DNA of 28,224 nt. Source: a virus. The stretch is from positions 1 to 28,224 of IMG/VR virus record IMGVR_UViG_3300028559_002381, one strand, 5' to 3'. The first letter of the stretch is position 1, and each line of letters starts with the position of its first letter. The translations under genes were made by a program, and so were the position numbers. Under the pieces are notes generated by a model. The model was not told the DNA's origin and ran no database searches. It saw only the letters and a program-made list of their open reading frames with translations. Shown here one piece after another: positions 10,201 through 28,035 of the stretch.

Positions 10201-10427
10201 ATATGGATTGTGTCGCAATAGGAACAAATTTTAAAAATTTAGAATTTAAATATACTAATGACTCCAGTTTTATGTCTCAAAAAGATATTGAATATTTCGG
10301 ATCGAATCTAAATAAGTTTTTACAAAACCGTGCAATCACAAAAGAAATAAATGAAAGTCATATTTTTGTAAAAACACTTGAAAAAGATTGGGGAACAAAT
10401 AGCATACAAGGAGGAAAAATCTGTTAA
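10197..10427 (+). CDS. Small hypothetical protein (76 aa), possibly a remnant
   Basis: The ATG overlaps the epimerase stop by 4 bases, as with other genes of this operon. The product is polar, Asn- and Lys-rich, without recognisable motif. It may be a real small protein or the leftover of a larger gene replaced by the following glycosyltransferase. Its last codons hold the strong ribosome binding site of that next gene. Confidence 0.4.
   Translation: MNMDCVAIGTNFKNLEFKYTNDSSFMSQKDIEYFGSNLNKFLQNRAITKEINESHIFVKTLEKDWGTNSIQGGKIC
10408..10414 (+). promoter_or_regulatory. Strong ribosome binding site AAGGAGG
   Basis: AAGGAGG lies 14 bases before the ATG at 10429 and inside the upstream small frame. 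It favours 10429 over 10378 as the start. Such strong sites are rare in this window. Confidence 0.55.
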
Positions 10428-10428
10428 T

Positions 10429-11211: not shown

Positions 11212-11236
11212 AATTCTTAAACCTGAGTAAATTTAT

Positions 11237-11839
11237 ATGACAAAAACATACAAAGAAAATCAATGGGACGATTTTCATATCAGAACAGATGATAAAAACT
11301 TTGTAACATCTTCTGGACTGGGTGAAATTCTGAATTATCACAAATTAGATTTGCCTGAAAATAAAATAATTTTAGAAATTGGTGTGGGACGAGGAGAGGC
11401 AATCAAAGAATTATCAAAAAACAATAAAGTAATAGGTTGTGATGTTTCGGAAATTGCTCTTAAAAATGTGGAATCTCTATGCTTAAAAACAGTTATATCA
11501 AAAAATTTAAAACAAATTGAACCGGTAGACTTTGCAATTAGCCATCTTACCTTTCAACATTGTCACGAACAAGAAGTTTTGAGAATTATTAATGAGGTTA
11601 ATCTGAAAGAAGGTGCTTGGTTTAGTTTTCAGTTTGCTTCGCTAAATCCGGAAAAAACAAAACTATCAAGTTTAATTTTAAGTGATTTGAATCAAGCTAT
11701 GATTTATTTTTATTCTTATGAAAAAATGATGGAAATAGTTAAAATGAGCAATAAAAAAATGGCAAGAGCCGTCGGACCTTATTGGTTCGGGGATCCTTTT
11801 TCGTTTGAATGGAATATTTTTCAGGTAAAAAACAAATGA
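11237..11839 (+). CDS. SAM-dependent methyltransferase (class I)
   Basis: A 200-aa methyltransferase. Motif I is IILEIGVGRGEAI (44-56) with the G-x-G-x-G loop, and the acidic end of strand 2 is GCDVSE (67-72). A DFAISH strand 4 follows. There is no DNA- or protein-methylase target motif, and its place in a sugar operon suggests O- or N-methylation of a sugar or capping of a glycan chain; this is inference. The next gene overlaps it by 4 bases (ATGA at 11836). Confidence 0.75.
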   Translation: MTKTYKENQWDDFHIRTDDKNFVTSSGLGEILNYHKLDLPENKIILEIGVGRGEAIKELSKNNKVIGCDVSEIALKNVESLCLKTVISKNLKQIEPVDFAISHLTFQHCHEQEVLRIINEVNLKEGAWFSFQFASLNPEKTKLSSLILSDLNQAMIYFYSYEKMMEIVKMSNKKMARAVGPYWFGDPFSFEWNIFQVKNK

Positions 11840-12588
11840 AAAAAAATATTGAGTTAGTTTGTTTAATTTTTAAATCAAAAAAATATTTAAATTTTATTTA
11901 CAATCAGTTGAACAGTGATTTGTGTAAATCCAAAGATTGGGATGTAAGCTATCGGATAGTTGCAAATGATCCTACTCCGGAAATAGAAATCACGCTTACG
12001 GAAATGCAAATACCCCATACAATTTACAGGGATAAATCTCCGAATGATTTTTATCTTAACCGGGTTTACCGGTGTTGGAATTTTGGCGCAACCAGTAGCA
12101 AATATGACAACATTTGTTTTGTAAATTCGGATATGGGATTTTCACCAAATTGGCTGGACAATTTATTAAAATATCATGACGGAATTAATATTCCCTGTAG
12201 CAGACTGGTGGAAAGTGGGCGAATTAATGTAGCGACAGAACGGCATGGAATTCCAAAAAACTTTGGAATGACTCCAGAAAGTTTCAATCGTGCTGAATTT
12301 GAAAAATATACCAAAACAATATCCAAAGACGAAATAAAGCCTTGGGGTCTTCTTATGCCGTGTGTTTTTGAAAAACAAAGATTTATAGAAGCGGGATTGT
12401 ATCCGCCCGGAAATGTATTTAAAATTGACGGAATCAAATACGCCGGATATCCAAACGACAGACCTGTATATAAACCGGGAGATGTTTATTTCTTCGAGGA
12501 CATTTTAGAAAAAAAATATGGAATGAAGCATGTCACAGTGATGAATTCGATTGTGTATCATGTTCAAGAAGGGGAAAAGAGCGAATAA
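11836..12588 (+). CDS. Glycosyltransferase, GT-A fold (family 2-like)
   Basis: A 250-aa protein. The ATG at 11836 (ATGA overlap) is preferred over 11809. The N-terminus IELVCLIFKSKKYL, a central RCWNFG helix, and CFVNSDMGFSPNWLDNLL (94-111) with Ser-Asp in the D-x-D position indicate a GT2-like enzyme. SRLVESG and PWGLLMPCVFEKQRF follow in the acceptor domain. The last 28 residues (EKKYGMKHVTVMNSIV...QEGEKSE) recur almost unchanged in a short fragment at 17059-17136, which shows that this gene, or a relative, was once present there too. Confidence 0.7.
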   Translation: MKKNIELVCLIFKSKKYLNFIYNQLNSDLCKSKDWDVSYRIVANDPTPEIEITLTEMQIPHTIYRDKSPNDFYLNRVYRCWNFGATSSKYDNICFVNSDMGFSPNWLDNLLKYHDGINIPCSRLVESGRINVATERHGIPKNFGMTPESFNRAEFEKYTKTISKDEIKPWGLLMPCVFEKQRFIEAGLYPPGNVFKIDGIKYAGYPNDRPVYKPGDVYFFEDILEKKYGMKHVTVMNSIVYHVQEGEKSE

Positions 12589-12611
12589 TATATAAAAACA
12601 AATTATTTATT

Positions 12612-13025
12612 ATGGAAAAAATATACTCTAAAATTAACGGTAAGCTTCTTCATCAAATTGTAAGAAGTAGTGACATTGTATCCAAGCGCCTAGATTTAAG
12701 TTCGGAAGAAGCATACTTGCAATGTGCTGCATTAAAGCTGCCTAAAGGACAAACATTCAAGCCGCACAAGCATATTATCAATCCAAGACATGATGAAAAT
12801 TATATACCACAAGAAAGTTGGTGTGTTATAAAAGGAAAAGTACAATGTATTTTTTATGATATAGATGATATTATAATTGCGGAGCCGATATTATCAGCTG
12901 GAGATGCTAGTTTTACATTTGCAGGCGGGCATAATTATTTAATATTAGAAGATGATACATTTGTTTATGAATATAAAACTGGTCCGTATTATGGTCAAAA
13001 AATTGATAAAAGATTTATTTTGTGA
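12612..13025 (+). CDS. Cupin-fold protein, WbuC-like
   Basis: A 137-aa single-domain cupin. The metal site is suggested by FKPHKH (about 51-56) and the following QESWCVIKGKVQ, where family members have a Glu or Gln. The end GGHNYLILEDDTFVYEYKTGPYYG matches the WbuC type (H-x-L-x-A-L-x-P-x-T...E-x-K-x-G-P-Y). WbuC-like proteins sit in O-antigen clusters and their exact reaction is unsettled. Its end overlaps the GTG start of the acetyltransferase by 4 bases. Confidence 0.7.
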   Translation: MEKIYSKINGKLLHQIVRSSDIVSKRLDLSSEEAYLQCAALKLPKGQTFKPHKHIINPRHDENYIPQESWCVIKGKVQCIFYDIDDIIIAEPILSAGDASFTFAGGHNYLILEDDTFVYEYKTGPYYGQKIDKRFIL

Positions 13026-13546
13026 AAATTGGCGAGGATGTAATTTTAGATTTGGATATTGTAATAAAACAAAAAGATAATTGTATCATATATAATCATG
13101 TTGCTATAGATAAAGGGTTTTATTGTACAACACAAATATCAATTGGTAATTATGTACACATCAGTCCTTATGTAACTATTTTAGGAGGTAAAACTGCTAA
13201 CTTTATTGCTAAAGGATTTAACAACATAATGGCAGGAGCTAGAATAATATGCGGATCTGACAGATTTGACGATAGCGGTTTGTTTGGAGCAATGATACCG
13301 CATGAACTAAAAGGCAAGCAAATTATAGAACCTGTAATTATGGATGAATTTTCTAATATAGGAACAAATTCAATCGTACTACCAGGTTCCAGATTAAGAA
13401 AAGGTGTATTATTGGCTGCCGGAAGTTTATTATTAGGTGATACCGAAGAATGGGGTGTATATAAAGGAAATCCTGCAGTATTAACTAAAAAAATTGATGG
13501 CACCAAAGCTATTTCTAATGCAAAAAAATTAAGTTATAATAACTAA
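13022..13546 (+). CDS. Hexapeptide-repeat acetyltransferase (left-handed beta-helix)
   Basis: A 174-aa protein starting at GTG 13022. Repeated I-x-G-x-x-V hexapeptide turns (ISIGNYVHISPYVTILGG, then VIMDEFSNIGTNSIVLPG) and the C-terminal VYKGNPAVLTKK are diagnostic of the LbetaH acyltransferases that acetylate sugars. It probably transfers acetyl from acetyl-CoA to a sugar O or N. It is followed at once by a DegT-type aminotransferase and Gmd, so an amino sugar such as perosamine is a plausible acceptor; this is inference. Confidence 0.8.
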   Translation: MKIGEDVILDLDIVIKQKDNCIIYNHVAIDKGFYCTTQISIGNYVHISPYVTILGGKTANFIAKGFNNIMAGARIICGSDRFDDSGLFGAMIPHELKGKQIIEPVIMDEFSNIGTNSIVLPGSRLRKGVLLAAGSLLLGDTEEWGVYKGNPAVLTKKIDGTKAISNAKKLSYNN

Positions 13547-13547
13547 A

Positions 13548-14156
13548 ATGTTTAACACAGTAACAAAATTTGAAAATGAAATTGCGCTTTTTTTTAATGC
13601 GCCTTATGCAGTGGCTATTGATAGTTGTACGCATGGTATTGAATTATGTTTAAGATTAAACAATATAACAAAAATTAGTGTTCCGGTACGTACATATTTG
13701 TCCATACCCATGTTGGCCAATAAATTAAAAATAAAATTAAATTGGAGAGATGAACAATGGGATAATTTTTATAATTTAAATTATGATGATAAAAAAATAA
13801 TTGATGCTGCAGTATTATGGGAAAAAAATAGCTATATCCCAAATACTTATATGTGTCTAAGTTTTCAATTCCAAAAACATTTAAGCTTGGGTCGTGGAGG
13901 AATGATATTACTGGATAATAAAGAAGATGCAGTTATACTCAAAAAAATGAGTTATGATGGACGTTTACCTGATATACCTTGGAGAGAACAAAATATTCAG
14001 ATAATGGGATACCATTACTATATGACACCAGAGACAGCGCAGTTAGGACTTAATAAGTTAACACAAGCGATTGAAACAAAACCAAGAAAATGGAAATACC
14101 AAGATTGGCCAGATTTAACAAAAATGTCAGTGTTTTCTGGTCATGGGACATTTTAA
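13548..14156 (+). CDS. DegT/DnrJ/EryC1-type aminotransferase, minimal length
   Basis: A PLP-dependent sugar aminotransferase core of only 202 residues, against about 370 in the family. Kept are the N-terminal FNAPYAVAIDSCTHGIELCL (16-35), VPVRTY (46-51), the Asp of DAAVLW (86), the SFQFQKHLSLGRGG segment (105-118) whose Lys110 matches the Schiff-base lysine, and GYHYYMTPETAQLG (154-167). The C-terminal small domain is absent, and no frameshifted remainder appears before the next gene. The substrate would be a keto sugar such as the product of the downstream Gmd, giving GDP-perosamine; this is inference. Confidence 0.75.
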   Translation: MFNTVTKFENEIALFFNAPYAVAIDSCTHGIELCLRLNNITKISVPVRTYLSIPMLANKLKIKLNWRDEQWDNFYNLNYDDKKIIDAAVLWEKNSYIPNTYMCLSFQFQKHLSLGRGGMILLDNKEDAVILKKMSYDGRLPDIPWREQNIQIMGYHYYMTPETAQLGLNKLTQAIETKPRKWKYQDWPDLTKMSVFSGHGTF

Positions 14157-14188
14157 AAAGTAATAACTATTGCAATATTTATTGCGAT

Positions 14189-14196
14189 TATAAATA
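14189..14196 (+). promoter_or_regulatory. TATAAATA motif before gmd
   Basis: A perfect TATAAATA lies 11 bases before the gmd ATG in the 51-bp gap after the aminotransferase gene. It may allow separate late expression of gmd. The spacing differs from the common 5-6 bases, so it is less sure. Confidence 0.35.
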
Positions 14197-14207
14197 CGAC
14201 TATAAAC

Positions 14208-15185
14208 ATGAAAAAAGCATTTATTACAGGTATAAATGGACAAGATGGAAGCTATTTGACCGAACATCTGATTTCGTTAGGATATGAAATATATGGAATT
14301 GTGCGCAGAAATTCTATGCCTGAACATCAACAAACAAGATTGGACTCGGTAAGAGATAAAATACATGTGCATTATGGTGATTTGTTAGATCAAGGAGTAA
14401 TGGAAAGGTTGTTGCGGGAAATACAACCAGATGAAATTTACAATCTAGCCGCTCAATCTCATGTCAGAATAAGTTTTGATATTCCACAATTTACAGTACA
14501 AACAAATGCATTGGGTGTTATTAATATATTGGAGGCATATAAACATGCATGCCCAAATGCTAAATTGTATCAAGCAAGTAGTTCAGAAATGTTTGGTTTA
14601 TCCGTAGAAGAAGATGGTTCTCAAAAGGAAACAACAGTTATGAACCCTGTTAGTCCTTATGGTTGTTCAAAGGTATTTGGATACAATATAGTTCGTAATT
14701 ATAGAAGAGCATATAAATTATTTGCGAGTAATGGTATTTTATTTAATCACGAATCACCAAGACGTGGCAGTAACTTTGTAACAAACAAAGTGGTTAAAAC
14801 CGCAATAGAAATTAAATTAGGTATGAAAGACAAATTAGTGATGGGTAATTTGGACTCTAAAAGAGATTGGGGTCATTCAAAAGATTATGTACGGGCAATG
14901 CATTTAATATTACAACATAATAAACCTGATGATTGGGTAGTGGCAACAGGAGAAACACGTTCTGTTAGAGATATGTGTAACTATGTTTTTGATAAATTAC
15001 AATTAAATTACAAAGATTATATTGTGCAAGATCCGAAATTTTTAAGACCTGAAGAATTGCCATACCTAAGAGGTGATTGTACCAAAATTACAACCGAATT
15101 AGGGTGGAAACCTGATTATACGTTTGAACAATTAATGGACGAGATGATTGAATATTGGTTAGATTTTTATAAAAAAACGACATAA
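14208..15185 (+). CDS. gmd: GDP-mannose 4,6-dehydratase
   Basis: A 325-aa extended SDR, full length. GINGQDGSYLTEHL (8-21) is the Rossmann and Gmd signature; GDLLD (57-61); NLAAQSHVRISF (79-90); the active-site SSSEMFG (124-130); Y151-x-x-x-K155 in SPYGCSKVF; NHESPRRGSNFVTNK (180-194); and DWGHSKDYV. It converts GDP-D-mannose to GDP-4-keto-6-deoxy-mannose, the branch point to GDP-fucose, -rhamnose, -perosamine and -colitose. No GMER (fucose synthase) is recognised in the window, which together with the nearby aminotransferase argues for perosamine rather than fucose, unless host enzymes help. Confidence 0.93.
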   Translation: MKKAFITGINGQDGSYLTEHLISLGYEIYGIVRRNSMPEHQQTRLDSVRDKIHVHYGDLLDQGVMERLLREIQPDEIYNLAAQSHVRISFDIPQFTVQTNALGVINILEAYKHACPNAKLYQASSSEMFGLSVEEDGSQKETTVMNPVSPYGCSKVFGYNIVRNYRRAYKLFASNGILFNHESPRRGSNFVTNKVVKTAIEIKLGMKDKLVMGNLDSKRDWGHSKDYVRAMHLILQHNKPDDWVVATGETRSVRDMCNYVFDKLQLNYKDYIVQDPKFLRPEELPYLRGDCTKITTELGWKPDYTFEQLMDEMIEYWLDFYKKTT

Positions 15186-15186
15186 C

Positions 15187-16140
15187 ATGAATAACATAGT
15201 AGATAAATCCAAATGGGGACAATCTAAAAATGGGTGGCTGGTAAATGATTGCTTGACCTGTATACCTAATACAAGAACGTTTTGGCATGATTTATTGGAT
15301 TGGTTTCCCAATCTTCAAGATAAATGCAATGGATATACAGATTATTCAATACTTGCAAATGTAATAGAGTCCATCAAACCTTATCCTGATTATATTATCA
15401 GGAACGGTTCTTATTTCCGCAAACTTAATATCGATGTACCTACGTTTTGTTTAATTCAAGATATGATGAACGAACCCATGCAAACAGAGGTTATAAACAC
15501 ATCTACTTGTGTAGTTTTCGCTTCAAAGCAAACATATAATTTTTATAAAGATAGAATCAACCCTAAAAATGTGCGGGTTATTGAACAATCATCCGATTTT
15601 AATTTTTTTAAACCCATCCCCGAAAGACACCCAGATGTGTTACCCAATTCAATCCTTTTTATAGGAGATTCCTCGTATCATAAAAAAGGTTTTCATAGAG
15701 TTTTAAATCTCATAGAAGTAATGCCGGATTTTAATTTTTGCTTGGTGATGAAAGATAACACCACTTTGGATGTAATTCCCCATCAAAGTAGAAATCGTGT
15801 ACGCATATTTAACAGAGTTAATACTAATACAGTCAGACTTTTAATTAATTCATCAGTATGTGGCATTTGTACTTCAGGAAATGAAGAAGGACATTTTGCT
15901 GGGATAGAAATTGGGGCGTGTGATATACCAATGGTGGCAAGACCCATGGGTTGTTATTTGGATAGAAAAGACGATAAGACTTGGGGATTAATAGCCAATG
16001 ACGAAGATTTTACTCAGACAATAAGATACGTTATCAATAATCGTAAATTATTTAGTCCCCGTAAATTTTATTCAAAAGAATACACACTTGAACGGTGTCG
16101 GGAAAAATGGACAAGCATGATAAACGAGTTCGTCAAATAA
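15187..16140 (+). CDS. Glycosyltransferase, GT-B fold (family 4-like)
   Basis: A 317-aa protein whose C-terminal half has the GT4 layout: SILFIGDSSYHKKGFHRVLNL (a strand, then a K-K-G-F helix), VRIFNRVN, and SGNEEGHFAGIEIGACDIPMVA, which matches the E-x7-E donor-binding region with Glu near GH and IEIGA. The N-terminal half would be the acceptor domain. The likely donor is a GDP- or UDP-sugar; the gmd just upstream makes a GDP-deoxysugar attractive. It begins one base after the gmd stop. Confidence 0.7.
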   Translation: MNNIVDKSKWGQSKNGWLVNDCLTCIPNTRTFWHDLLDWFPNLQDKCNGYTDYSILANVIESIKPYPDYIIRNGSYFRKLNIDVPTFCLIQDMMNEPMQTEVINTSTCVVFASKQTYNFYKDRINPKNVRVIEQSSDFNFFKPIPERHPDVLPNSILFIGDSSYHKKGFHRVLNLIEVMPDFNFCLVMKDNTTLDVIPHQSRNRVRIFNRVNTNTVRLLINSSVCGICTSGNEEGHFAGIEIGACDIPMVARPMGCYLDRKDDKTWGLIANDEDFTQTIRYVINNRKLFSPRKFYSKEYTLERCREKWTSMINEFVK

Positions 16141-16152
16141 TATCTAATTTAT

Positions 16153-17046
16153 ATGAAATTTACAGTTCAAATAGAATCTGGTTTATGTAATTTTCTTAAG
16201 TCGTTTGTTACAGCTTTAAGCATAGGAGAAACCAATATATTACCAAGAGTTAATGATTTTTTAATTAGATACAGTCCATATGAATTTGGAGAATCTTTTG
16301 TATTACCGACAGTTAGATATTGGTTTGAGTTTGTTGCTGATTGTAGAGAAATTTTTGATGATTCTTTAATTTGCCATGGTCCTCATGAATTCGGAGAATC
16401 TGTCATTTCAGCAAGACTTCTTATTTTAAAATCAGAAGAGACAGAACAACCTGATTTAATAAATGATGCGAAAGTACTGGGGGATCATCCTAATATAGTA
16501 AATAAAAAGCTTGCATATTTGTTTTCAACACATTCTATTGATTGGTTTTTTGACAGAAATCTTATATGTGATACAGTATATAATCGAATCCAGAGCGGAA
16601 TTAAAAAGATTAAATGGAAAAATGAAGTATTATCCGAAGTAGATAGAGTTTCTAAACAATTTGAATATCCATTACTAACAATACAAATAAGAACCTGGAA
16701 GCATGAGCTTGATCCTCCTAATTGTACTCAAATACGTGATGGCGTTATAAGAGATTATAATTTTGAAACATATAAAAATGCAATTGATAAATTTTTACCA
16801 AAAGCAAAAACTATTTTTCTTACATGTGATAAAGACAGTGTTTTACCAGAATATTTTGATTATTTGAAAGATTATAATGTCGTGACATATATCAAACCAG
16901 ATCATATTACACAAATGCAGTATTCGGCAGCAACCATGTTATTGGGTGCAAAAAGTGATATGTTGGTCTGCAGTCGTCTTAGTACATTTGCGGAATGTAT
17001 GTGGTGGTTTGGTGGATGTAAAGCCGAAACGATACCAGTTTTTTAA
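16153..17046 (+). CDS. Fucosyltransferase/NodZ-like protein
   Basis: A 297-aa protein with features of GT-B fucosyltransferase-type enzymes: LLTIQIRTWKHE (174-185) resembles the H-x-R-x-x-D/E peptide that binds the GDP part, IFLTCDKDSV (221-230) the following strand and aspartate, and AKSDMLVCSRLSTFAECM (266-283) the S-x-F/S-T-F motif. The link to GDP-6-deoxysugars fits the neighbouring gmd. The N-terminal region contains EFGES twice (44-48 and 79-83), an internal repeat of unknown meaning. The exact family is uncertain. Confidence 0.5.
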   Translation: MKFTVQIESGLCNFLKSFVTALSIGETNILPRVNDFLIRYSPYEFGESFVLPTVRYWFEFVADCREIFDDSLICHGPHEFGESVISARLLILKSEETEQPDLINDAKVLGDHPNIVNKKLAYLFSTHSIDWFFDRNLICDTVYNRIQSGIKKIKWKNEVLSEVDRVSKQFEYPLLTIQIRTWKHELDPPNCTQIRDGVIRDYNFETYKNAIDKFLPKAKTIFLTCDKDSVLPEYFDYLKDYNVVTYIKPDHITQMQYSAATMLLGAKSDMLVCSRLSTFAECMWWFGGCKAETIPVF

Positions 17047-17058
17047 AAAAAATTAAAT

Positions 17059-17136
17059 AAAAAATACGATATGAAACATGTAACAGTTTTCGATTCGCTA
17101 GTATATCGCATACAAGAAGGGGAAAAAAGTGAATAA
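17059..17136 (+). pseudogene. Leftover C-terminus of a glycosyltransferase
   Basis: The 25 codons from 17059 (KKYDMKHVTVFDSLVY...QEGEKSE, then TAA) match the last residues of the glycosyltransferase ending at 12588 (KKYGMKHVTVMNSIVY...QEGEKSE), with 19 of 25 residues identical by eye. No upstream part of that gene exists here: the preceding gene stops at 17046 in the same frame. It therefore looks like the 3' scar of a replaced or deleted paralogue. The segment also supplies an AAGGGG-like ribosome site and the GTG start of the next gene. Confidence 0.75.
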
Positions 17137-17782
17137 AAATTATACGATAATAGTACCAAGCAATAGGGACGCTTTGAAAGATGAATTAATCAGTCATTTG
17201 AAAAACATAGGTGAAGAATCAATTTGGAAAAATGGTCATGGTTATCCATCATTTTCAAAACTAATAAACGATTGTGTTGTTGAGTCACCTACAGAAATTA
17301 TTATTATTTGTAGTGATAAAGCTAGACCAAAAAAAGAACACATAGAAAAAGTACTTGATCTTTTAGAACAAGGATATGGATTTGCTGGGTTATATGCATG
17401 GGGATTTTTTGGATTTAAAAAAGAATTATTTAGACGTATTGGATTTATGGATGAAAGATTCATTGGTGGTAATTATGAAGATTGTGATTATTTAAGAAGA
17501 ATGATGGAGGGTAATATTGCCATGTATAATTCATTTGAAATAGATTATATACTTATGAGTTCAGGATGGAACATATCAAATACAAAAACTCATTTTGATA
17601 AAAAATGGGAGCATGGTGATTTACCAGAGGATAAATATGTAAAACGATTATTGCCGGAAGAAACTTACGACTATAACATAGGTGAAAAAACAAATATAAA
17701 ATTTCTACCATGGTCTGAATCATTTTTTAGTATTGACGTAGGTAAATCAGAAACATTCATGGATTACAAAATAAAATTATAA
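17129..17782 (+). CDS. Glycosyltransferase, GT-A fold, short
   Basis: A 217-aa protein. The GTG start at 17129 overlaps the remnant's end. YTIIVPSNRD begins the fold, IIIICSDKARP (57-67) is in the nucleotide/D-x-D position, and GFMDERFIGGNYEDCDYLRRM (105-125) matches the GT2 G-F-D-E/E-D-x-D acceptor region. A C-terminal tail of about 60 residues rich in Trp and Lys follows. Donor and acceptor are unknown. It ends the first half of the sugar island; a 70-base AT-rich gap with a weak hairpin follows. Confidence 0.65.
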   Translation: MNKNYTIIVPSNRDALKDELISHLKNIGEESIWKNGHGYPSFSKLINDCVVESPTEIIIICSDKARPKKEHIEKVLDLLEQGYGFAGLYAWGFFGFKKELFRRIGFMDERFIGGNYEDCDYLRRMMEGNIAMYNSFEIDYILMSSGWNISNTKTHFDKKWEHGDLPEDKYVKRLLPEETYDYNIGEKTNIKFLPWSESFFSIDVGKSETFMDYKIKL

Positions 17783-17812
17783 AAATTATAATTTAAATAT
17801 AAAAATTTTTTA

Positions 17813-17837
17813 AACTTATTGAAATTTTTTATAAGTT
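17813..17837 (+). other. Weak AT-rich inverted repeat
   Basis: AACTTAT (17813-17819) and ATAAGTT (17831-17837) flank an 11-base loop in the gap before the epimerase gene. The 7-bp stem holds one G-C pair and lacks a following U-run, so it is a poor terminator; it may mark a unit boundary. Confidence 0.25.
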
Positions 17838-17852
17838 GGTATATAAAAATAT

Positions 17853-18818
17853 ATGAATAAAATACTAATCATTGGTGGATCAGGATATATTGGAGGTTAT
17901 TTGACTGATCTTATAACGAAGTCACCATCAACAAAAAATTATAATCTGTTAAAGCCTGCAGTTTTAGACAATTTGATTTATGAAGATCGTTTCTTAAAAG
18001 AAGTAGATTTTTATAATATTGATGTTCGAGATGTGAAAGAATTGGATAAGGTAATTCATAATTATAAAGTTGTTGTATTGCTTGCAGCATTGGTTGGAGA
18101 TCCTGCATGTGCTGTAGACAAACAATTATCTTATGATATTAACGTTACTCCTGTTAAATGGATAACAGACAATTATAAGGGGAAAATAATTTTCACTTCA
18201 ACATGTTCAGTTTATGGAAAAAACGATGATCTTATCGATGAAAATGCAACACCCAATCCTCTTTCCATTTATGCTGAAACAAAACTTGAAGCAGAACAGT
18301 ATCTTTTTTCTAAAAGACCGGATAGTTTGATTTTCAGACTGGGAACTCTTTATGGAGTAGGTGATAGTCATAGTCGGCTACGTTTGGATCTGGTTGTAAA
18401 TGTATTAACACTCAAGGCATCTTTGGGTGAGACATTAAAGGTATTTGGTGGAGAACAATGGCGACCTCTTTTGCATGTAAAAGATGTGGCGAATGCAACA
18501 TTGTTTGCAATTTCAAATAATATTTCAGGAATTTATAATCTTTCTGAAAGAAATGCCACAATGCGTGAAATTGCTGAAACCATAAAAGAAGAAATTCCAT
18601 CTGCAAAAATTGAATATAGCGAAATACCATTTGAAGATCTTAGGAACTATAAGGTTAAAAATGAAAAGATTATGCAAACAGGATGGAATCCTCAATATTC
18701 ATTGGTTTATGGAATAAAAGAAATGAACGATGTTTTTAAACAAAAACGTGTGAAGCAACTCACCGATGATGTTTATCACAACGGAAATTATATAAGGAGA
18801 CTTTATGGAAAAAAATGA
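17853..18818 (+). CDS. NAD-dependent sugar epimerase/dehydratase (SDR)
   Basis: A 321-aa extended SDR. GGSGYIGGYL (8-17) is the Rossmann loop, LLAALVGDP (76-84) the next NAD contact, STCSVYG (116-122) the serine/threonine, and Y140-x-x-x-K144 (YAETK) the catalytic pair. RPLLHVKDVA matches the substrate-site strand. It acts on a nucleotide sugar; whether it epimerises, dehydrates or reduces is not clear. The RmlC-like gene overlaps its end by 14 bases and the RmlD-like gene follows, so the three form a deoxysugar trio. Confidence 0.85.
   Translation: MNKILIIGGSGYIGGYLTDLITKSPSTKNYNLLKPAVLDNLIYEDRFLKEVDFYNIDVRDVKELDKVIHNYKVVVLLAALVGDPACAVDKQLSYDINVTPVKWITDNYKGKIIFTSTCSVYGKNDDLIDENATPNPLSIYAETKLEAEQYLFSKRPDSLIFRLGTLYGVGDSHSRLRLDLVVNVLTLKASLGETLKVFGGEQWRPLLHVKDVANATLFAISNNISGIYNLSERNATMREIAETIKEEIPSAKIEYSEIPFEDLRNYKVKNEKIMQTGWNPQYSLVYGIKEMNDVFKQKRVKQLTDDVYHNGNYIRRLYGKK
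18794..18799 (+). promoter_or_regulatory. Ribosome binding site AAGGAG
   Basis: AAGGAG lies 5 bases before the ATG at 18805, inside the end of the preceding gene. It supports that start. Confidence 0.6.
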
Positions 18819-19284
18819 AATTAAAACATTGAATGGTGGTTTGGCAACAGATGATCGTGGATCTGTTCGTTTTGTAAATGATTTCAATTTTGAAGGAGTT
18901 AAAAGATTTTATCAGGTACAAAATCATAGGGAAGGATTCATCCGGGCTTGGCATGCTCACCAGAAAGAAGCCAAGTATGTTTATGTTGCAAAAGGAACAG
19001 CTTTGATTGGTGCAGTTCCTTTTGATATTATGCTGGATTTGAAAAGCAAAAAGCATAAAAACGAAAACATTGAATTGGATAATTCAAATATTTTTAAAAC
19101 TGTTTTATCCGCAAACAATCCTAAAATTGTGTATATTCCATCTGGTTATGCGAATGGATTTAAATCATTAGAGAAGGATACTATAATTCAATTCTTCAGC
19201 ACAAGCACACTTCAGGAATCATTGGGAGATGATTTCCGATTTGACTATGATCTTGTGGATATTTGGAAGGAGGATTACCGATGA
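18805..19284 (+). CDS. RmlC-like sugar epimerase/ketoisomerase (cupin)
   Basis: A 159-aa protein of the dTDP-4-dehydrorhamnose 3,5-epimerase-like cupin group. DDRGSVRFVND (16-26), RAWHAHQKEAKYVYV (48-61) with His50/His52, IPSGYANGF (111-119; family P-x-G-x-A-H-G-F) and GDDFRFDYD follow the RmlC order. Two expected details differ: the AHGF histidine is Asn, and the tyrosines expected near 131-136 are Phe and Leu. It may be a ketoisomerase or an epimerase with altered chemistry. A strong Shine-Dalgarno site sets the start, and its stop overlaps the next ATG by 4 bases. Confidence 0.75.
   Translation: MEKNEIKTLNGGLATDDRGSVRFVNDFNFEGVKRFYQVQNHREGFIRAWHAHQKEAKYVYVAKGTALIGAVPFDIMLDLKSKKHKNENIELDNSNIFKTVLSANNPKIVYIPSGYANGFKSLEKDTIIQFFSTSTLQESLGDDFRFDYDLVDIWKEDYR
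19267..19273 (+). promoter_or_regulatory. Strong ribosome binding site AAGGAGG
   Basis: AAGGAGG with 7 bases to the ATG at 19281; this settles the start at 19281 rather than the TTG at 19263. Confidence 0.7.
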
Positions 19285-20108
19285 AAATAATTGTATTGGG
19301 TAAGAATGGAATGCTTGGAAAATATATTTTTAAATATCTTGGAAAGAATTTCGTTGTCAAAGGAATTACACGTGAGGATTTGGACGTCTCAGATACTGAT
19401 AATTTAAAAAATAATTTTAATAAATTATATGATCTTGGTGTAAATGATATTGTTGTTAATTGCGTAGGAACCATCAAACCAAGATGTGATGAGCTGGGAG
19501 AAATTAATGCAATTAAAGTAAATTCTATTGTTCCCAGGATTTTGGCAGATCTTTCTAAAGAAAAGGGTTTCAAACTTTTACATCCGACAACTGACTGCAT
19601 TTATTCTGGAAATACAGGTGCATATACAGAAAAGGAGGATTTGGATGTAGGTGATGTATATGGTGTCACCAAGTATTTGGGTGAAACAAAGCATGCCACT
19701 AATTTAAGAGTAAGCATTATTGGTGAGGAAACAGTCAATAAAAGAAGCCTTGTGGAGTGGTGTAAAACCTTAGATGGAAAAGAAGCAAAAGGATTTACAG
19801 ATCACTTATGGAATGGAGTAACTTGTTTGACTTATGCAAAAATAATTGAAACCATGATAGAGAAGAACATATGGTGGACAGGAACACGTCATGCCCTTTC
19901 ACCAAGATCATTGAACAAATATGAATTAGTTAAACTCATCACTGATGTTTATAAAATAAAAGTAAACTTGAAGGAAGCAGAATCTGGAAAGAAATGTGAT
20001 CGTACATTACAAACAATTTACAAAGAAAATTCACTTTTTAATATTCCAGATTTAAATATTCAAATTAGAGAAATGAATGAATTTAGTTCACAACTTTATT
20101 TATTTTAA
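19281..20108 (+). CDS. RmlD-like NAD(P)-dependent sugar reductase
   Basis: A 275-aa SDR of the RmlD substrate-binding type. The N-terminal GKNGMLGKYI (7-16) is the G-x-x-G-x-x-G loop, NCVGTIKP (60-67) the next NAD contact, and TTDCIYSGNTGAY (103-115) with Y127-x-x-x-K131 (YGVTK) is the RmlD signature. It would reduce a 4-keto-sugar nucleotide. With the RmlC-like gene (4-bp overlap) it suggests a deoxysugar. RmlA and RmlB homologues are not in the window, so the host, another region or a non-rhamnose route must supply the keto-sugar. Confidence 0.85.
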   Translation: MKIIVLGKNGMLGKYIFKYLGKNFVVKGITREDLDVSDTDNLKNNFNKLYDLGVNDIVVNCVGTIKPRCDELGEINAIKVNSIVPRILADLSKEKGFKLLHPTTDCIYSGNTGAYTEKEDLDVGDVYGVTKYLGETKHATNLRVSIIGEETVNKRSLVEWCKTLDGKEAKGFTDHLWNGVTCLTYAKIIETMIEKNIWWTGTRHALSPRSLNKYELVKLITDVYKIKVNLKEAESGKKCDRTLQTIYKENSLFNIPDLNIQIREMNEFSSQLYLF

Positions 20109-20130: not shown

Positions 20131-21123
20131 ATGAATAAGGCATTAGGGTTTGAAGACATTGTTCTTATTCCAAAATACAGCTGTCTTGTGTCACGAAAGC
20201 ATGCTAATACTTCTGTAAATTTGGCTGGTAAGAAATTCAAGCTACCAATTTGCCCGTCCAATATGGTATGCACGATTAATGAATCTTTGGCTAAATTTTT
20301 ATCAGAATCTGGTTATTTTTATGTGATGCATCGTTTTTGTGATGTGATAGATTTTATACAAAAAGCAAACGATGAAAATTGGAAATTCATCAGTGCTTCA
20401 GTTGGTGTTGGACCAAATTGCTGGTCTGTAGTAGAAGAAGTTAAAAAAAGAAATCTAAGGATAGATTGTTTGACAATCGATGTTGCTCATGGTCATCATG
20501 AATTGGTAAAAGAAGCCATAAAAAAGATTAAGAGTAATTTTTCTGATACATTTGTTATTGCAGGAAATGTTACTACCAAACAAGGAACACAAGATTTGAA
20601 GGATTGGGGCGCAGACATGGTCAAGGTGGCAATAGGCACAGGCAAAGCATGTATAACCAAAGATAAGACGGGGTTTACACTTCCAGTGTTTACATGCATT
20701 CAGGAGTGTGCAGAAGTGGATGTGCCTATAATGACTGATGGCGGTGTTCGTTGTCATGGAGACATAGCCAAGAGCATTGTTGCAGGTTCCGCTATCAATA
20801 TGGTTGGAAGTATGTTTGCAGCATGCTTAGATAGTCCTGCAGATAGAATTATAGAATATCCTGTAACAGATTCAAAAAGTCATGATGAATTTAAGAAACC
20901 AAAATTATATAAAAAATATTTTGGATCTGCTAGTTATGAAAATAAAATCATAAACAATCTTTCTGTTGAAAATATTGAAGGGACAACTGTTTTGGTTGAA
21001 GAGAATGACAAAACATATGCAGAAATGCTTTTGGAAATAGAACAGGATTTACAGAGTAGCATTTCTTATTCGGGAGGATATAATATTACTGATCTGTCCC
21101 ATACAAATTATAGAATCATATGA
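20131..21123 (+). CDS. guaC: GMP reductase (IMPDH/GMPR family)
   Basis: A 330-aa TIM-barrel enzyme, close to GMP reductase in length and without the CBS pair of IMP dehydrogenase. Landmarks are LGFEDIVLIPKYS (5-17), VMHRF (65-69), DVAHGHHE (117-124), IAGNVTT (143-149), the catalytic-loop ADMVKVAIGTGKACITK (161-177) with Cys174, and TDGGVRCHGDIAKSI (202-216). It would convert GMP to IMP with NADPH and so rebalance purine pools. The catalytic loop G-T-G-K-A-C differs from the common G-P-G-S-x-C, so a shifted substrate is possible. It overlaps the next gene by 4 bases (ATGA). Confidence 0.8.
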   Translation: MNKALGFEDIVLIPKYSCLVSRKHANTSVNLAGKKFKLPICPSNMVCTINESLAKFLSESGYFYVMHRFCDVIDFIQKANDENWKFISASVGVGPNCWSVVEEVKKRNLRIDCLTIDVAHGHHELVKEAIKKIKSNFSDTFVIAGNVTTKQGTQDLKDWGADMVKVAIGTGKACITKDKTGFTLPVFTCIQECAEVDVPIMTDGGVRCHGDIAKSIVAGSAINMVGSMFAACLDSPADRIIEYPVTDSKSHDEFKKPKLYKKYFGSASYENKIINNLSVENIEGTTVLVEENDKTYAEMLLEIEQDLQSSISYSGGYNITDLSHTNYRII

Positions 21124-23228: not shown

Positions 23229-24047
23229 ATGCTGCAACAATCGTATCATTTTGAAATAAAGGATCTTATAGCATCTTTCATAGATGCTTTTGACGGCACA
23301 GTTATACGCCGATTCAATAAAAATAGAAGTTCTGAAAGTCAAATAAAGGTTCGTTACCTTTATGCGCCTAAACAACGAGTTCTTTTTGATATTGTAACTC
23401 CTGGTCAAAATCTCACTCTTCCTGTTGTTGCCATAACCATTACAGGATTGAATAGGGACGAAAATCGAGTTTTTAACAAAATTGCAGGATTCTATGTGAA
23501 TCAAGCAACTCGAATAGAAGACTCTTCTGCCCAAACAACATATTTCAGAACACCCACACCTGTTGATATAGGAATCAACATGAGCATATTGACTCGCTAT
23601 CAAACTGATATGGATCAGATTCTTAGCAATTTCATTCCTTTCAACAATCCTTATATTATCATTTCCTGGCAAATTCCAACAGCATATAATCTGGCAGTTC
23701 CTCAAGAAATAAGAAGCGAAGTGCTTTGGAACGGAACTGTTAACCTGAATTATCCAGTGGATCAGGATCCCAACAACAAATCTCTTATTGTGGCAGATAC
23801 CAGTTTTACAATAAAAGGTTGGATATTCCCTGCTGAAAGTCCAGATGTTAAAAATATATTTTATATTAATACAGATCTTAATGCAGCGGGTCCAGGTGTT
23901 TCATTGAATTACGATAATTATGCAAATCTTGAAGCTCAATCATTCACAAGCAATTCTCCCAATAGTGCATTTCAAAATACAGATACCATTTCTATCAGTG
24001 CAAATCCTCAATTTATTGGTCCAACCGAATTACAGGTGGAGGTATAA
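23229..24047 (+). CDS. Tail sheath stabiliser/terminator (T4 gp15-like)
   Basis: A 272-aa protein whose layout follows T4 gp15: FIDAFDGTVIRRF, then IKVRYLYAPKQRVLF, a central LPVVAITITGLNRDENR, and the diagnostic VDIGINMSILTRYQTDMDQIL followed by FIPFNNPYIIISWQIP (gp15 has a similar L-S-I-F-T-R-Y-x-x-D-M-x-Q-I stretch), then FTIKGWIFPAE. gp15 caps the contractile tail and joins it to the head. This is strong evidence for a myovirus-type tail. It sits downstream of the stem-loop with its AGTAAATA motif and weak AGGA site. Confidence 0.78.
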   Translation: MLQQSYHFEIKDLIASFIDAFDGTVIRRFNKNRSSESQIKVRYLYAPKQRVLFDIVTPGQNLTLPVVAITITGLNRDENRVFNKIAGFYVNQATRIEDSSAQTTYFRTPTPVDIGINMSILTRYQTDMDQILSNFIPFNNPYIIISWQIPTAYNLAVPQEIRSEVLWNGTVNLNYPVDQDPNNKSLIVADTSFTIKGWIFPAESPDVKNIFYINTDLNAAGPGVSLNYDNYANLEAQSFTSNSPNSAFQNTDTISISANPQFIGPTELQVEV

Positions 24048-24514: not shown

Positions 24515-26311
24515 ATGGCTCAAGCTGATTATTCCTCTACAAATGACCGAGGATCTAATACTTTTGGAAGAAGTTTACAAAAGTTTATAAATGAACGTCT
24601 TCCATACAACAACTATGCTGTTGTTGATGTTCTTTCTCAGCTGAATCCAAAATTTGCACTTTTTCAAGATACAGGAAGTCGTAGAACTGAAGCAATTGCA
24701 AAACACAGTGTAAGCAGCAGCACAGGAATTAATGAAACCAGTATAGGTGCGATTGCCAGTGATAATAGTGTTACCAATTATCTTTATGCGAACATACAAG
24801 CTGATAAAGCTGCACGTATCCGGGATTATCGGACCATGGCTGCTTTTTCAGAAGTAGCAGATGCTTTAGATGAAATATGTGATGAAGTTGTGAATGTGGA
24901 TGAAGAAGGTAAAATTGTAAAAATTCGTTTTCATGATGATGATTTGTCGGAAATTCAAAAAGAAGAATTGCAAAAAGAGTTTCATCGTTATATTAATCTT
25001 TTTGAATTGGAAAATCGTGGTTGGGAATATTTCAGGCATATGCTTGTGGATGCTGAAATTTATTTCGAGCATATTATTCATAGAGATTATCCACAGGAAG
25101 GTATTTTAGGAGTTGTTAGCATTCCTCCAGAATTGGTTGATCCTGTTTTTGGAAATGTTCAGAACTTGATGGTCAAAGGTTTTGTTTTGAGAAAGCCACT
25201 TTTTGACAAAACCAATCCAACAAAGGTAGTAGACTATCAAATTGTTCCATTGGATAAAAATCAGGTCACTTATATTAATAGTGGAATATGGAATGAAAAT
25301 AAAACAGTTCGTCTTCCTTTCCTTGAAAATGCTCGTCGTGCTTATCGTCAACTTTCTCTTATTGAAGATAGTATTGTAATTTATCGTCTTGTTCGTGCCC
25401 CAGAAAAATTGGTTTTCAAAGTTGATGTAGGAAATATGAGTCCGGCCAAAGCCGAGGGTTATATGCGCCGTCTTATGAGCCAATATTGGAGTCGTAAAAC
25501 ATTTGATAATAATCAGGATGCGACTGTTCAAAAGTTCAACCCACAAAGCATGTTGGACAGTTTTTGGTTTGCTAAACGTACAGGTCAGGATGGAACCACT
25601 GTGGAACAACTTCAAGGTGGAGCAAATCTTGGAGAATTGACAGATTTGATGTATTTCATGAAGAAGTTGTATCGCAGTCTCAAGGTACCTTCTTCTCGTC
25701 TTAATCCTGAAGACACATATAAAGATGGAACAGAAATTCTTCGGGAAGAATTAAAGTTTTCAAAATTTATTATTCGACAACAACAAAGATTTGCAGAAGG
25801 TCTTAAGAATGGTTTTATAACAAATCTTAAACTCAAGAAAATGTGGTCTGAATACGGATTAAAAGAAAATCATTTTGATTTGGCATTTAATGTACCAAGC
25901 AATTTCTATGAAATGCGTGAATTGCAAAAAATGCAGATGCGCACAGAAGGATTCAACAATATTACTAATAATGAAAGCATCAGCAAGATTTATATGCAAA
26001 AGAAGATTCTGGGATGGACAGATCGTATGGTATTGGCAAACCGTGAATTCCTTCGTAAAGATGCTGAAATGAAATGGGAATTGGATCAGATTAGTGGGGC
26101 CGGTCCGGATTGGCGTAAGCAATTTGAAAGTGGCGGGAAAACTCCAAAAGCTGGTGGGGGTGGAGAAACTCCTCCTGAATTCGGACCTTCTCCGGCTGGA
26201 GGAACAACCGCACCTACTGGAGGATCTGCAGATGAAGAAACCCCGGAAGCCCCGGAAGTTCCTGAAGCAGATGAAACACCTGAAACTCCTCAAACTCCTG
26301 AAGCGACTTAA
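24515..26311 (+). CDS. Portal vertex protein (T4 gp20 family)
   Basis: A 598-aa protein, near the family length. The central clip/stem region shows LDEICDEVVNVDEEGKIV, EYFRHMLVDAEIYFEH-type helices, EDSIVIYRLVRAPEKLVFKVDVG (R-x-P-E-x-L/D...V-D-x-G, the gp20 hallmark), AEGYMRRLMSQY, and PSSRLNPEDTYKDGTEILREELKF. The C-terminal 60 residues are Pro/Glu/Thr/Gly-rich and disordered. The portal forms the dodecameric ring through which DNA enters the prohead. It follows a TATAAATA box. Confidence 0.92.
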   Translation: MAQADYSSTNDRGSNTFGRSLQKFINERLPYNNYAVVDVLSQLNPKFALFQDTGSRRTEAIAKHSVSSSTGINETSIGAIASDNSVTNYLYANIQADKAARIRDYRTMAAFSEVADALDEICDEVVNVDEEGKIVKIRFHDDDLSEIQKEELQKEFHRYINLFELENRGWEYFRHMLVDAEIYFEHIIHRDYPQEGILGVVSIPPELVDPVFGNVQNLMVKGFVLRKPLFDKTNPTKVVDYQIVPLDKNQVTYINSGIWNENKTVRLPFLENARRAYRQLSLIEDSIVIYRLVRAPEKLVFKVDVGNMSPAKAEGYMRRLMSQYWSRKTFDNNQDATVQKFNPQSMLDSFWFAKRTGQDGTTVEQLQGGANLGELTDLMYFMKKLYRSLKVPSSRLNPEDTYKDGTEILREELKFSKFIIRQQQRFAEGLKNGFITNLKLKKMWSEYGLKENHFDLAFNVPSNFYEMRELQKMQMRTEGFNNITNNESISKIYMQKKILGWTDRMVLANREFLRKDAEMKWELDQISGAGPDWRKQFESGGKTPKAGGGGETPPEFGPSPAGGTTAPTGGSADEETPEAPEVPEADETPETPQTPEAT

Positions 26312-26325: not shown

Positions 26326-27411
26326 ATGTCAATTGTAAGCAAACAAGCACTATATGATGCATTTTCAGCAGGTAATACACCTTCTAGTAATGATTTTAAA
26401 AATTTAATTGATAGCACATTTGGTTTTCCTACAAGTGCTTCTAACTATACGACGGGCTTAACTCTTAGCCAAGGTTCTACTGGACTTCCTATTTTAGTAA
26501 ACGGAGCAACCTATTATCTTGCTTTGTTTAATACTACAACATCACCCGCAATTACTGCAGATCAAAGCGCTTATACAAATACTGTAAGACTTACATATCC
26601 TAATGCTGTTTTGGCTGAAACATTTGGAAGCAGATGTGCCACATTTATTCAAACTCTTTGTGGTTATACACCAGATGATGTTATTTCAGCAGCTTGTATA
26701 TGTTCTGATGATAAAAATGCTCCTATCTTCCCGAATAATACATTCGGTCAATATCCAGTATCTCTGCAACAATTTAGCGGTCCTTTCTTTGCTGGAGGAA
26801 TAGGTGGATATCCTTTCCCTGGAATTGTTGGTCTTTTTGCTTGGATGAGTCACGTAACAGAAACTGGTGCGTTATTCATATATGTGCATCCTCATATTGG
26901 AATCACCAAGAGCGGTCAAGTAGGTTTCATGAAACGTCGGGGTCAAGGCGGAAACCTAAGCCAAACATGTGGAGCCGTTAATGCAGCCCAAGCCCGAATC
27001 GTTGGTCCATTGAGTGCAACAGCACCAACATTCCCTAGCGCTGAATTTACAATTAATGATTTTCAACAATATACACTTGTTAATACATTATTTTCGAATA
27101 CAACCACAAGAAATGCTTTGACTGCAGCTTCTCCCACTCAAGGTGGTACATATGCTCAAAGAATGAAAATAGCTACAGATGCTATCCTTGTAGCTGCTTT
27201 AAGCGCTGTAGAAACCATATTGCCAATTTCATATAATGCATTTTTCCAAGGAGAAAACAGTAAAGACGTATTTGTACATGCTGGTACATTCATTAATGTT
27301 GATGATGGATTTAGTGCTTATGTGGACACGATTGCGTTTAAAAAATACAATCCTGTAACACAAACATTTACAACTCTTACAAGTGCGTTTTCAGCAGCCT
27401 TTGGTTTATAA
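26326..27411 (+). CDS. LCIB-like (theta/beta-type) carbonic anhydrase domain protein
   Basis: A 361-aa protein. Residues 1-35 (VSKQALYDAFSAG...DFKNLIDSTFG) resemble the start of phage fibre/decoration proteins (a K-x-x-L-x-x-x-F-x-x-G...F-x-x-L-I-D pattern). Residues about 84-335 follow the limiting-CO2-inducible protein B/C domain: YPNAVLAETF, CSDD (126-129), FAGGIGGYPFPG (155-166), HPHIGITKSGQVG (188-200), a KRRGQ (203-207), TCGAVNA (214-220) and a late GTFINVDDG. The likely zinc set is Cys126, His190 and Cys215, with Asp128 and an Arg as the catalytic dyad, as in LCIB proteins. It would interconvert CO2 and bicarbonate if active. Its place beside the portal and the promoter motif point to late, perhaps virion-bound expression. 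Confidence 0.7.
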   Translation: MSIVSKQALYDAFSAGNTPSSNDFKNLIDSTFGFPTSASNYTTGLTLSQGSTGLPILVNGATYYLALFNTTTSPAITADQSAYTNTVRLTYPNAVLAETFGSRCATFIQTLCGYTPDDVISAACICSDDKNAPIFPNNTFGQYPVSLQQFSGPFFAGGIGGYPFPGIVGLFAWMSHVTETGALFIYVHPHIGITKSGQVGFMKRRGQGGNLSQTCGAVNAAQARIVGPLSATAPTFPSAEFTINDFQQYTLVNTLFSNTTTRNALTAASPTQGGTYAQRMKIATDAILVAALSAVETILPISYNAFFQGENSKDVFVHAGTFINVDDGFSAYVDTIAFKKYNPVTQTFTTLTSAFSAAFGL

Positions 27412-27449: not shown

Positions 27450-27650
27450 ATGCCAACAAACATAGTAACTGCAGTACTCACCGCCATAACTCAAATATTT
27501 GGGGCTATAAACAACTTGTTTAACGCCAAGAACACACCAGAGATGAAAGATCGTCAGGAAAAACAAAAAGAAGTGGATCACACAAGCAGAGCAGAACAAG
27601 CTGTAAAGGAGAAAGATGTTAAAAAGATTCGCGATATTCTCGCTGAGTAG
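27450..27650 (+). CDS. Small helical protein, possible inner-membrane spanin
   Basis: A 66-aa protein; ATG 27450 is preferred over GTG 27435. Residues 3-25 (TNIVTAVLTAITQIFGAINNLF) form a moderately hydrophobic helix, followed by a charged helix (EMKDRQEKQKEVDH...KDVKKIRDILAE). Its end overlaps a lipoprotein gene by 35 bases in another frame, the typical layout of Rz/Rz1-type spanin pairs. The N-terminal helix is weak for a membrane anchor, so a structural role remains possible. AATAAATA occurs 30 bases upstream (27412-27419). Confidence 0.5.
   Translation: MPTNIVTAVLTAITQIFGAINNLFNAKNTPEMKDRQEKQKEVDHTSRAEQAVKEKDVKKIRDILAE
27605..27611 (+). promoter_or_regulatory. Ribosome binding site AAAGGAG for the lipoprotein
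   Basis: AAAGGAG lies 4 bases before the ATG at 27616, within the coding region of the upstream small gene, and fixes the start of the overlapping lipoprotein frame. Confidence 0.65.
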
Positions 27651-28035
27651 TTTATTGATTGCAGGCTGCACCACAGTTACGCCTGATAAAATCAAAGACG
27701 AAGTGGCTAGTTATGATGCCAGCACACCCACAGGGTATGATGTGCAGAATAGCGGTTTTATAGGGTTTACTGATGACGGTAAAGGTCTAATAACAGCGTT
27801 TGGTGTTTTAAGGTATAATACCCTTGTAAAAGCATATAAGGTCAAATTTAAAGGTTATAAGGGGGTAGAACTTAATGAAAATGACGGAATAACTGAATAT
27901 GCAGATAAACTTGGAAATAAACTTTATATTATTGATCAACAGCACCTTGTTTATTATGCAATTCTTAATAGTTGGCGTAAAGAGGGCAAGCCTACCGATA
28001 GCATTGTAGATAAGGTAATAGACAAAGTTAATTAA
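27616..28035 (+). CDS. Lipoprotein (possible outer-membrane spanin)
   Basis: A 139-aa protein with a lipoprotein signal: MLKRFAIFSLSSLLIAGC, a basic start, a hydrophobic core and the lipobox I-A-G-C with Cys18 as the lipidation site. The mature part (TTVTPDKIKDEV...) is polar and mixed alpha/beta, ending with a VDKVIDKVN helix. It overlaps the preceding small helical protein gene, as Rz1 does with Rz. At about 120 mature residues it is long for an Rz1, so an unrelated phage lipoprotein, for example a superinfection-exclusion factor, is also possible. It implies a Gram-negative host. Confidence 0.65.
   Translation: MLKRFAIFSLSSLLIAGCTTVTPDKIKDEVASYDASTPTGYDVQNSGFIGFTDDGKGLITAFGVLRYNTLVKAYKVKFKGYKGVELNENDGITEYADKLGNKLYIIDQQHLVYYAILNSWRKEGKPTDSIVDKVIDKVN

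Follow-up and report, generated by a model that had tools for sequence, protein, structure and literature searches.

Proteins of the LCIB family are already known as enzymes, carbonic anhydrases of the kind with which algae concentrate CO2. According to two papers, the cleft between subunits bears on the active site, Chlamydomonas LCIB is inactive as purified, and the diatom proteins PtLCIB3 and PtLCIB4 appear to be constitutively active (PMC5876011, PMC9614477). The Pfam family PF18599 (LCIB_C_CA) has been used for theta-type carbonic anhydrases (PMC8119650). For a carbonic anhydrase fold on a virus particle, the closest published idea that we found is vaccinia D8, from an unrelated virus, whose carbonic-anhydrase-fold domain is described as lying on the particle and as a probable adhesin for chondroitin sulfate (PMC4256255). 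Carbonic anhydrases are also encoded by Pandoravirus, one of which (A0A4D6EJK2) was the top match of our structural model in the BFVD viral model library; at E=0.023 and a TM score of only 0.28-0.33 it does not represent an LCIB-like match, and the library contained no match below E=0.001. What appears to be new is a phage family of LCIB proteins, the fusion of its members to phage modules, and its presence on about a hundred viral contigs, none of which we found described in the open-access literature among the matches listed. Papers pairing carbonic anhydrase with phage terms dealt, in the portions available, with plasmid genes, community metagenomes or size markers instead.

The LCIB gene of the window and its probable enzyme domain

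The window, the whole stretch of viral DNA that was analysed (28,224 bases, record IMGVR_UViG_3300028559_002381), carries the LCIB gene near its end (Table 1). An earlier note, made from the sequence alone, had placed an LCIB-like protein directly after a gp20-type portal, and this arrangement stands: the reading frame is present, starting after a gap of 14 nt from the portal stop, and the portal assignment is secure by its PHROG match. The best named relatives of this portal come from T4-like phages and share about 28-33% identity with it (tblastn; best 15 of 2,492 rows), and the region around the LCIB gene is, by its gene families, a T4-like structural cluster. The motifs that had been read in the protein are present in the order given: CSDD (126-129), FAGGIGGYPFPG (155-166), HPHIGITKSGQVG (188-200), KRRGQ (203-207) and TCGA (214-217).

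Table 1. Coordinates of genes, protein parts and putative active-site codons in the window
Feature	Position	Strand	Basis
Glycosyltransferase	8282-9133		within glycan gene run
UDP-GlcNAc 2-epimerase	9130-10200		E=6.7e-66
GDP-mannose dehydratase-like	14208-15185		E=6e-115
Tail sheath stabiliser-like gene	23229-24047	+	phrog_227 E=7.1e-18
gp20-type portal gene, 598 aa, directly upstream of LCIB gene	24515-26311	+	phrog_213 E=2.6e-107; tblastn: T4-like portals
LCIB gene (N-terminal module + LCIB/theta-type carbonic anhydrase domain), 361 aa, ATG start	26326-27411	+	ORF; Pfam PF18599 E=6.7e-25
N-terminal module, aa 1-69	26326-26532	+	stand-alone 91-95 aa protein near portal in enzyme-less relatives
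Variable linker, aa 70-80	26533-26565	+	alignment; residues 66-74 pLDDT <50
LCIB/theta-type carbonic anhydrase domain, aa 81-356	26566-27393	+	VIA-align vs 5b5y_B; Foldseek E 1.8e-14
Cys126, putative zinc ligand	26701-26703	+	invariant in 66 rows; 102/104 viral proteins, 2 gaps
Asp128, putative Asp of Asp-Arg dyad	26707-26709	+	invariant in 66 rows; 102/104, 2 gaps
His176, aligned with PtLCIB4 His88	26851-26853	+	invariant in 66 rows; 103/104, 1 gap
His190, putative zinc ligand	26893-26895	+	invariant in 66 rows; 103/104, 1 gap
Arg204, putative Arg of dyad	26935-26937	+	invariant in 66 rows; 103/104, 1 gap
Cys215, putative zinc ligand	26968-26970	+	invariant in 66 rows; 102/104, 2 gaps

Searches of sequence and structure databases agree on the family of the C-terminal domain. 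The match of the window protein to PF18599, which the note had proposed seeking, lies far beyond chance (E=6.7e-25; score 88.1 bits, cut-off 25); the same model scored above its cut-off in 12 of 12 other viral proteins given to hmmscan, and the family was found in all 11 viral records searched and in none of 14 control genomes. A phmmer search of PDB sequences returned 6kfs (E=2.8e-13), two more LCIB-domain entries (1e-10) and PtLCIB4 (4.9e-10), followed by LCIC and LCIB. Neither PHROGs (11 members tested) nor NCBIfam (10 members tested) yielded an LCIB model. An AlphaFold2 model built on a 66-row alignment of viral and cellular sequences has a mean pLDDT of 82.6, with most ten-residue blocks of residues 81-361 averaging above 88. 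The active-site region is the less sure part of the domain (residues 121-130 average 81 and 131-140 average 60), and the fold of the N-terminal module is poorly modelled, with residues 1-4, 28-52 and 66-74 below 50. An earlier model from the 16 closest viral rows was discarded at pLDDT 51.4, a value raised to 82.6 by the distant viral and cellular rows. The first seven Foldseek matches of the retained model in the PDB are all LCIB-family crystals (E 1.8e-14 to 9.1e-9), and the proposed overlay on such crystals bears this out: residues 81-356 superpose on PtLCIB4 (5b5y_B) with Z 28.4 and an rmsd of 2.1 A over 240 aligned residues (VIA-align), LCIB and LCIC score Z of about 22, and ordinary beta-carbonic anhydrases about 11-13. 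The domain therefore almost certainly belongs to the LCIB/theta carbonic anhydrase family. The note was right to see such a domain, the limits of which are about 81-356 by structural alignment rather than 84-335, and likewise right about a separate phage N-terminus, which by alignment measures about 69 residues and not about 35. The window protein resembles LCIB, LCIC and PtLCIB4 in its fold, its Cys-His-Cys set, its Asp-Arg pair and the histidine removed in PtLCIB4 H88A; unlike these solved proteins it is phage-encoded, bears an N-terminal module, shares 16-21% identity with them in the structural alignments, and shows no link to photosynthesis that we could see.

Conservation was read across a wider set of viral proteins. 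Profile scans of IMG/VR gave 19 loci at first, 32 with a mixed alignment and 131 relatives with a distant one (best 80 of 131); merging these overlapping scans with the window left 98 loci and 104 viral proteins (L numbers here and below name loci, among them portal relatives and cellular ones). Loci L084-L090, L094, L106-L109, L172 and L176 were dropped as duplicates, some of those kept are near-identical (e.g., L124-L131, or L165 with L166), and L020, a 107-aa fragment below the profile threshold, is outside the 104. Six active-site positions show zero substitutions among the 104 proteins, with gaps confined to four proteins cut by contig ends. The Cys, His and Cys and the Asp and Arg of LCIB enzymes that the note had named are thus all invariant by alignment; the conserved arginine is Arg204 and not Arg205, which varies (R in 67 proteins, K in 29, Q in seven, gap in one), and His176 joins the conserved set in the 66-row alignment. 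In alignments to PDB entries, window S127 falls on the PtLCIB4 position mutated in the S47R crystal, and counting along them puts H176 on His88, the residue replaced in the H88A crystal. Cys126, His190 and Cys215 are putative equivalents of the residues that we take to be the zinc ligands of the family, and since the fold matches LCIB crystals the three are predicted to lie close in space. Comparison of the window gene with those of L005 and L007, the two least divergent pairs and the only ones close enough for a simple NG86 count, gave a dN/dS of 0.08 in the domain, against 0.22-0.24 in the N-terminal module. Purifying selection, the predicted fold and the invariant positions all speak for a functional zinc enzyme, and we consider it rather likely that the window protein is an active carbonic anhydrase. 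A decoration protein merely derived from the fold is less likely because the active site is invariant.

N-terminal modules shared with other phage proteins

The module of the window protein, the clearest case, also exists without the enzyme. Among the best 80 of 165 portal relatives of the window, an LCIB gene follows the portal gene in nine (contigs of L002-L008, L188 and L191, where L188 is the contig of L020 and L191 that of L016), so that the portal-adjacent position remarked on in the note recurs in other phage genomes. In ten of the 80, the protein encoded near the portal is 91-95 aa long and consists of the module with no carbonic anhydrase domain. Its gene begins exactly 8 nt after the portal stop, directly behind the portal like the LCIB gene of the window, in L185, L186, L189, L190 and L192 (95-aa protein; L185 and L186 share their first 40 residues and may be near-copies), 11 nt after it in L213, and 227-272 nt after it in L193, L220, L232 and L236. 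The window module matches all ten, with iE values of 3.7e-11 to 7e-4 by phmmer and 1.2e-11 to 2.9e-6 by a module HMM. Both enzyme and module were absent after the portal in 61 of the 80 relatives (61 of the 73 further ones), with less than 360 nt left in 12. Where portal identity is at least 83% (15 relatives), nine have module and enzyme, five have the module alone and one (L187) has neither. In alignment, the last stretch of the small protein (VTLNGSAVKIPFFN in L189) coincides with that of the window module (LVNGATYYLALFN), and for this reason the window gene looks like the whole small protein followed by a linker and the enzyme. No separate gene for the small protein was found in 12 LCIB-bearing records, in six of which it was found within the LCIB gene itself. 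The 22 viral records first searched contained no window module outside LCIB genes; it appeared alone among the portal relatives. Against phages, the 95-aa protein matched one hypothetical protein at E=0.004 and Acinetobacter proteins at E 5-10, these partly tail fibre or spike, and among named families the window module matched nothing but phrog_22781 (E=0.046), of unknown function.

When 20 chosen portal-relative records with no LCIB gene after the portal were searched in full, 19 contained none elsewhere, many such records being fragments, and one, of 217 kb, held a tandem pair. The record of L225, outside those 20, is the contig of L093 and carries LCIB elsewhere. LCIB is thus an accessory gene, since it is present in some portal relatives and missing from 19 of these 20 records.

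The N-termini of the 104 viral LCIB proteins fall into ten multi-member classes and two singletons at a phmmer threshold of 1e-3, which may separate distant relatives such as classes 4 and 6. Another six copies have almost nothing before the domain, and contig ends truncate five more. Four classes, comprising 70 of the 104 proteins, have an N-terminus in common with phage proteins that lack the LCIB domain and are encoded on the same contigs or on related ones, and the remaining classes had no such partner among the viral loci compared. One of the four is the class of the window, with the small portal-adjacent proteins as partners. The N-terminus of the 47-member class, for which six members were used as queries, also occurs in L116_1, L117_9, L145_11 and L135_1. 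In L097-L100 and L103, the gene immediately before LCIB encodes a 306-307 aa protein with the N-terminus of L102 and L104 (E 1e-26 to 1e-29). In the class of L018, L019, L091, L093 and L105 the partners are fibre-like genes: the N-terminus of L093 recurs in two of its neighbours (E 4e-14 and 6e-10), and that of L018 matches L019_4 (E 2.4e-7), the one sharing partner with a virion annotation, a tail-category PHROG (phrog_677, E 3.1e-13). Most partners lack any; L100_7 has no Pfam or PHROG family, and the one match of L093_16 is to a family of unknown function. A virion-attached enzyme gains support from the module that stands alone next to the portal and from the other modules common to phage proteins, some of them fibre-like. 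As fusions and gene contexts both argue for it, attachment of phage LCIB to the particle seems to us quite probable on this genomic evidence.

Spread among viruses, gene contexts and origin

Viral contigs bearing LCIB reach 272 kb (best 80 of 131 relatives), and the carriers are many uncultured phages, several of them clearly T4-like. Five diverse members (P0001, L102, the first L096 copy, L138 and L169) had no credible match to named phages in 50,697 INPHARED records. Matches of the L169 protein to cyanophage genes called 'structural protein' and 'VrlC' (E 0.3-0.4) were rejected as chance, two of these scoring at most 0.5 bits by family profiles. A plasmid collection gave no LCIB match.

Outside the portal-adjacent group the gene occupies several structural contexts. 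In L009-L015 it comes after the gene for the major capsid protein (in L013, Pfam Gp23 at E=3.6e-88), and in L097-L104 it lies upstream of the tail sheath gene and, where the contig reaches, downstream of a head-tail adaptor gene (families read for L100). In L169, whose portal and capsid genes belong to another lineage, both are nearby, and the capsid gene lies four called genes (60 aa or more) before it. For the 47-member class the structural context is less clear than for the others: its genes adjoin glycosyltransferase genes, genes for proteins that by eye resemble proline-threonine-linked fibres and, often, a DNA polymerase gene (first 25 of 89 neighbour families). Six loci (L095, L096, L162, L164, L165 and L166) carry tandem pairs, in which a module-bearing copy comes first and the domain of the second is preceded by just 6-7 residues; a further tandem pair occupies 194480-195747 of the 217-kb record of L208.

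Some neighbours and variants are worth recording beside these contexts. At L111:7647-9977 and L112:7647-9977 the LCIB domain is found inside a larger protein of 776 aa with an extra C-terminal part of 390 aa, a part that the cut L167 also has. In fibre-like clusters, a subtilase (L093:10011-11969, Pfam E=9.9e-31) and a protease-like gene (L019:6477-7808, phrog_20754 E=3.2e-12) are found near LCIB, a hint that particle enzymes are grouped in cassettes. RCC1-like repeats occur in fibre-like proteins encoded at L019:3991-6534 (Pfam RCC1-like, E=1.5e-58) and at L013:781-2910 (repeats by eye).

In cellular genomes, a scan of GTDB contigs with the mixed alignment found 63 LCIB loci, mainly on contigs titled as Balneolota or Bacteroidota groups, with a minority from a few Planctomycetota, one Spirochaetales, one Anaerolineales and one contig labelled archaeal; phage-specific patterns by themselves found no relative in GTDB. 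These stand-alone proteins (about 225-265 aa where complete) have the same domain and residues as phage LCIB; unlike the phage proteins they lack an N-terminal module, and neither of two trees places them within the viral clade. The viral sequences group as a single clade (SH-aLRT 99) when 39 of them are placed in a tree with 28 cellular and three PDB rows, and an earlier tree of 23 viral and 59 cellular rows agrees. Both trees are quick searches with long branches flagged, and the later one drew on part of each set (39 of 104 viral proteins, 28 of 63 cellular loci). The simplest reading of one viral clade is a single entry into phages. Labels for the N-terminus, of which there are 12, change 12 times along the tree with 39 viral rows. 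The cellular row nearest to the viral clade, L021, is on a contig titled Chitinophagaceae that looks bacterial by eye, and the donor was perhaps a Bacteroidota-like bacterium. Relatives of the carriers would fit hosts of that kind: the tail sheath of L100 is 54% identical to that of Flavobacterium phage immuto, and the capsid protein of L169 matches uncultured cr-named phages, which we take to be crAss-related, and Cellulophaga phages, though its best match is a Leptolyngbya phage.

A proposed particle-docked enzyme and its alternatives

We lean towards reading the window protein as a zinc enzyme that is appended to a portal-adjacent protein, docked on the particle and able to control local pH and bicarbonate. 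The catalytic domain would follow a small phage protein whose gene neighbours the portal gene, and this module (residues 1-69) would most likely attach the whole to the particle, at its head, neck or fibre region. In the C-terminal domain, Zn2+ would most likely be bound by Cys126, His190 and Cys215, the active site would further contain His176 and the Asp128-Arg204 pair, and the reaction catalysed is most likely the conversion between CO2 and bicarbonate. Should the protein dimerise as LCIB does, active sites on the particle would be shared between paired subunits, and in the six tandem loci the anchored, module-bearing subunit may be partnered by the free, nearly bare copy. Such an enzyme could control pH and bicarbonate at the interface of particle and host during attachment or DNA entry; of the benefits considered we favour this control at the host surface, tentatively and with considerable doubt.

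An unlikely alternative, the best placed of those considered, is an auxiliary metabolic enzyme made late and acting within the infected cell, where it would supply bicarbonate for nucleotide or fatty-acid synthesis or buffer pH, the module serving solubility or assembly only. The intact active site under strong purifying selection would suit it, as would the accessory presence of the gene (19 of the 20 chosen LCIB-less portal-relative records are without it), the sugar and nucleotide metabolism genes in the same window, and the cellular LCIBs, which stand alone without such a module. Ten or more N-terminal modules, four of them common to other phage proteins, would not be expected of a free cytosolic enzyme, however, and neither would the repeated place of the gene in head, neck or fibre-like clusters.

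It is more improbable that the fold serves as a binding domain for a receptor or glycan, with catalysis irrelevant. Zero substitutions at six active-site positions in 104 proteins speak against this, and receptor surfaces usually diverge, whereas the domain here is slow (dN/dS 0.08 against 0.22-0.24). Vaccinia D8 itself has an alpha-carbonic anhydrase fold, unlike that of phage LCIB. The idea draws on modules common to fibre-like proteins and on the precedent of D8 (PMC4256255). Very improbable is a beta-carbonic-anhydrase-fold enzyme acting on another small molecule such as COS or CS2, members of which superfamily do appear in the fold list, at insignificant values (3vqj, a COS hydrolase, E 0.43; 3teo, a CS2 hydrolase, E 4.8), but LCIB proteins are closest by a wide margin (Z 22-28 against 13 for the next group) and all six active-site residues shared with PtLCIB4 are kept.

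The broadest form of the particle-docked reading, that widespread phage particles carry an active zinc carbonic anhydrase, acquired once and re-anchored many times on different particle parts, that alters CO2, bicarbonate and pH where particle and host meet, falls a little short of an even chance in our judgement. If it is true, these phages bear on their particles an enzyme whose reaction is among the commonest in biology, an idea that we did not meet in the open-access papers listed, and CO2/bicarbonate chemistry would be added to the virion enzymes, which to our knowledge are otherwise mostly cutters of wall, glycan and protein. Phage LCIB would then show how a single catalytic domain can pass between numerous anchoring modules, and this makes the anchors, including the unnamed 95-aa portal-adjacent protein, open to testing.

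Several other genes of the window deserve mention in their own right. A phage-encoded run of glycan genes occupies 8282-20108 and includes further epimerase-like genes besides those in Table 1; these may modify sugars of the virion or host surface. An IMP dehydrogenase/GMP reductase-like gene (20131-21123; Pfam E=4.5e-51, phrog_9582 dehydrogenase) is unusual so near tail genes. Downstream of the LCIB gene are a 66-aa reading frame (27450-27650, ATG at 27450) and a lipoprotein-like one of 139 aa (27616-28035), possibly a lysis pair. Counterparts of both also lie downstream of LCIB in L005-L007. In L018, L091 and L105, which have LCIB genes of another type, the two clusters are again neighbours near LCIB, there on the opposite strand.
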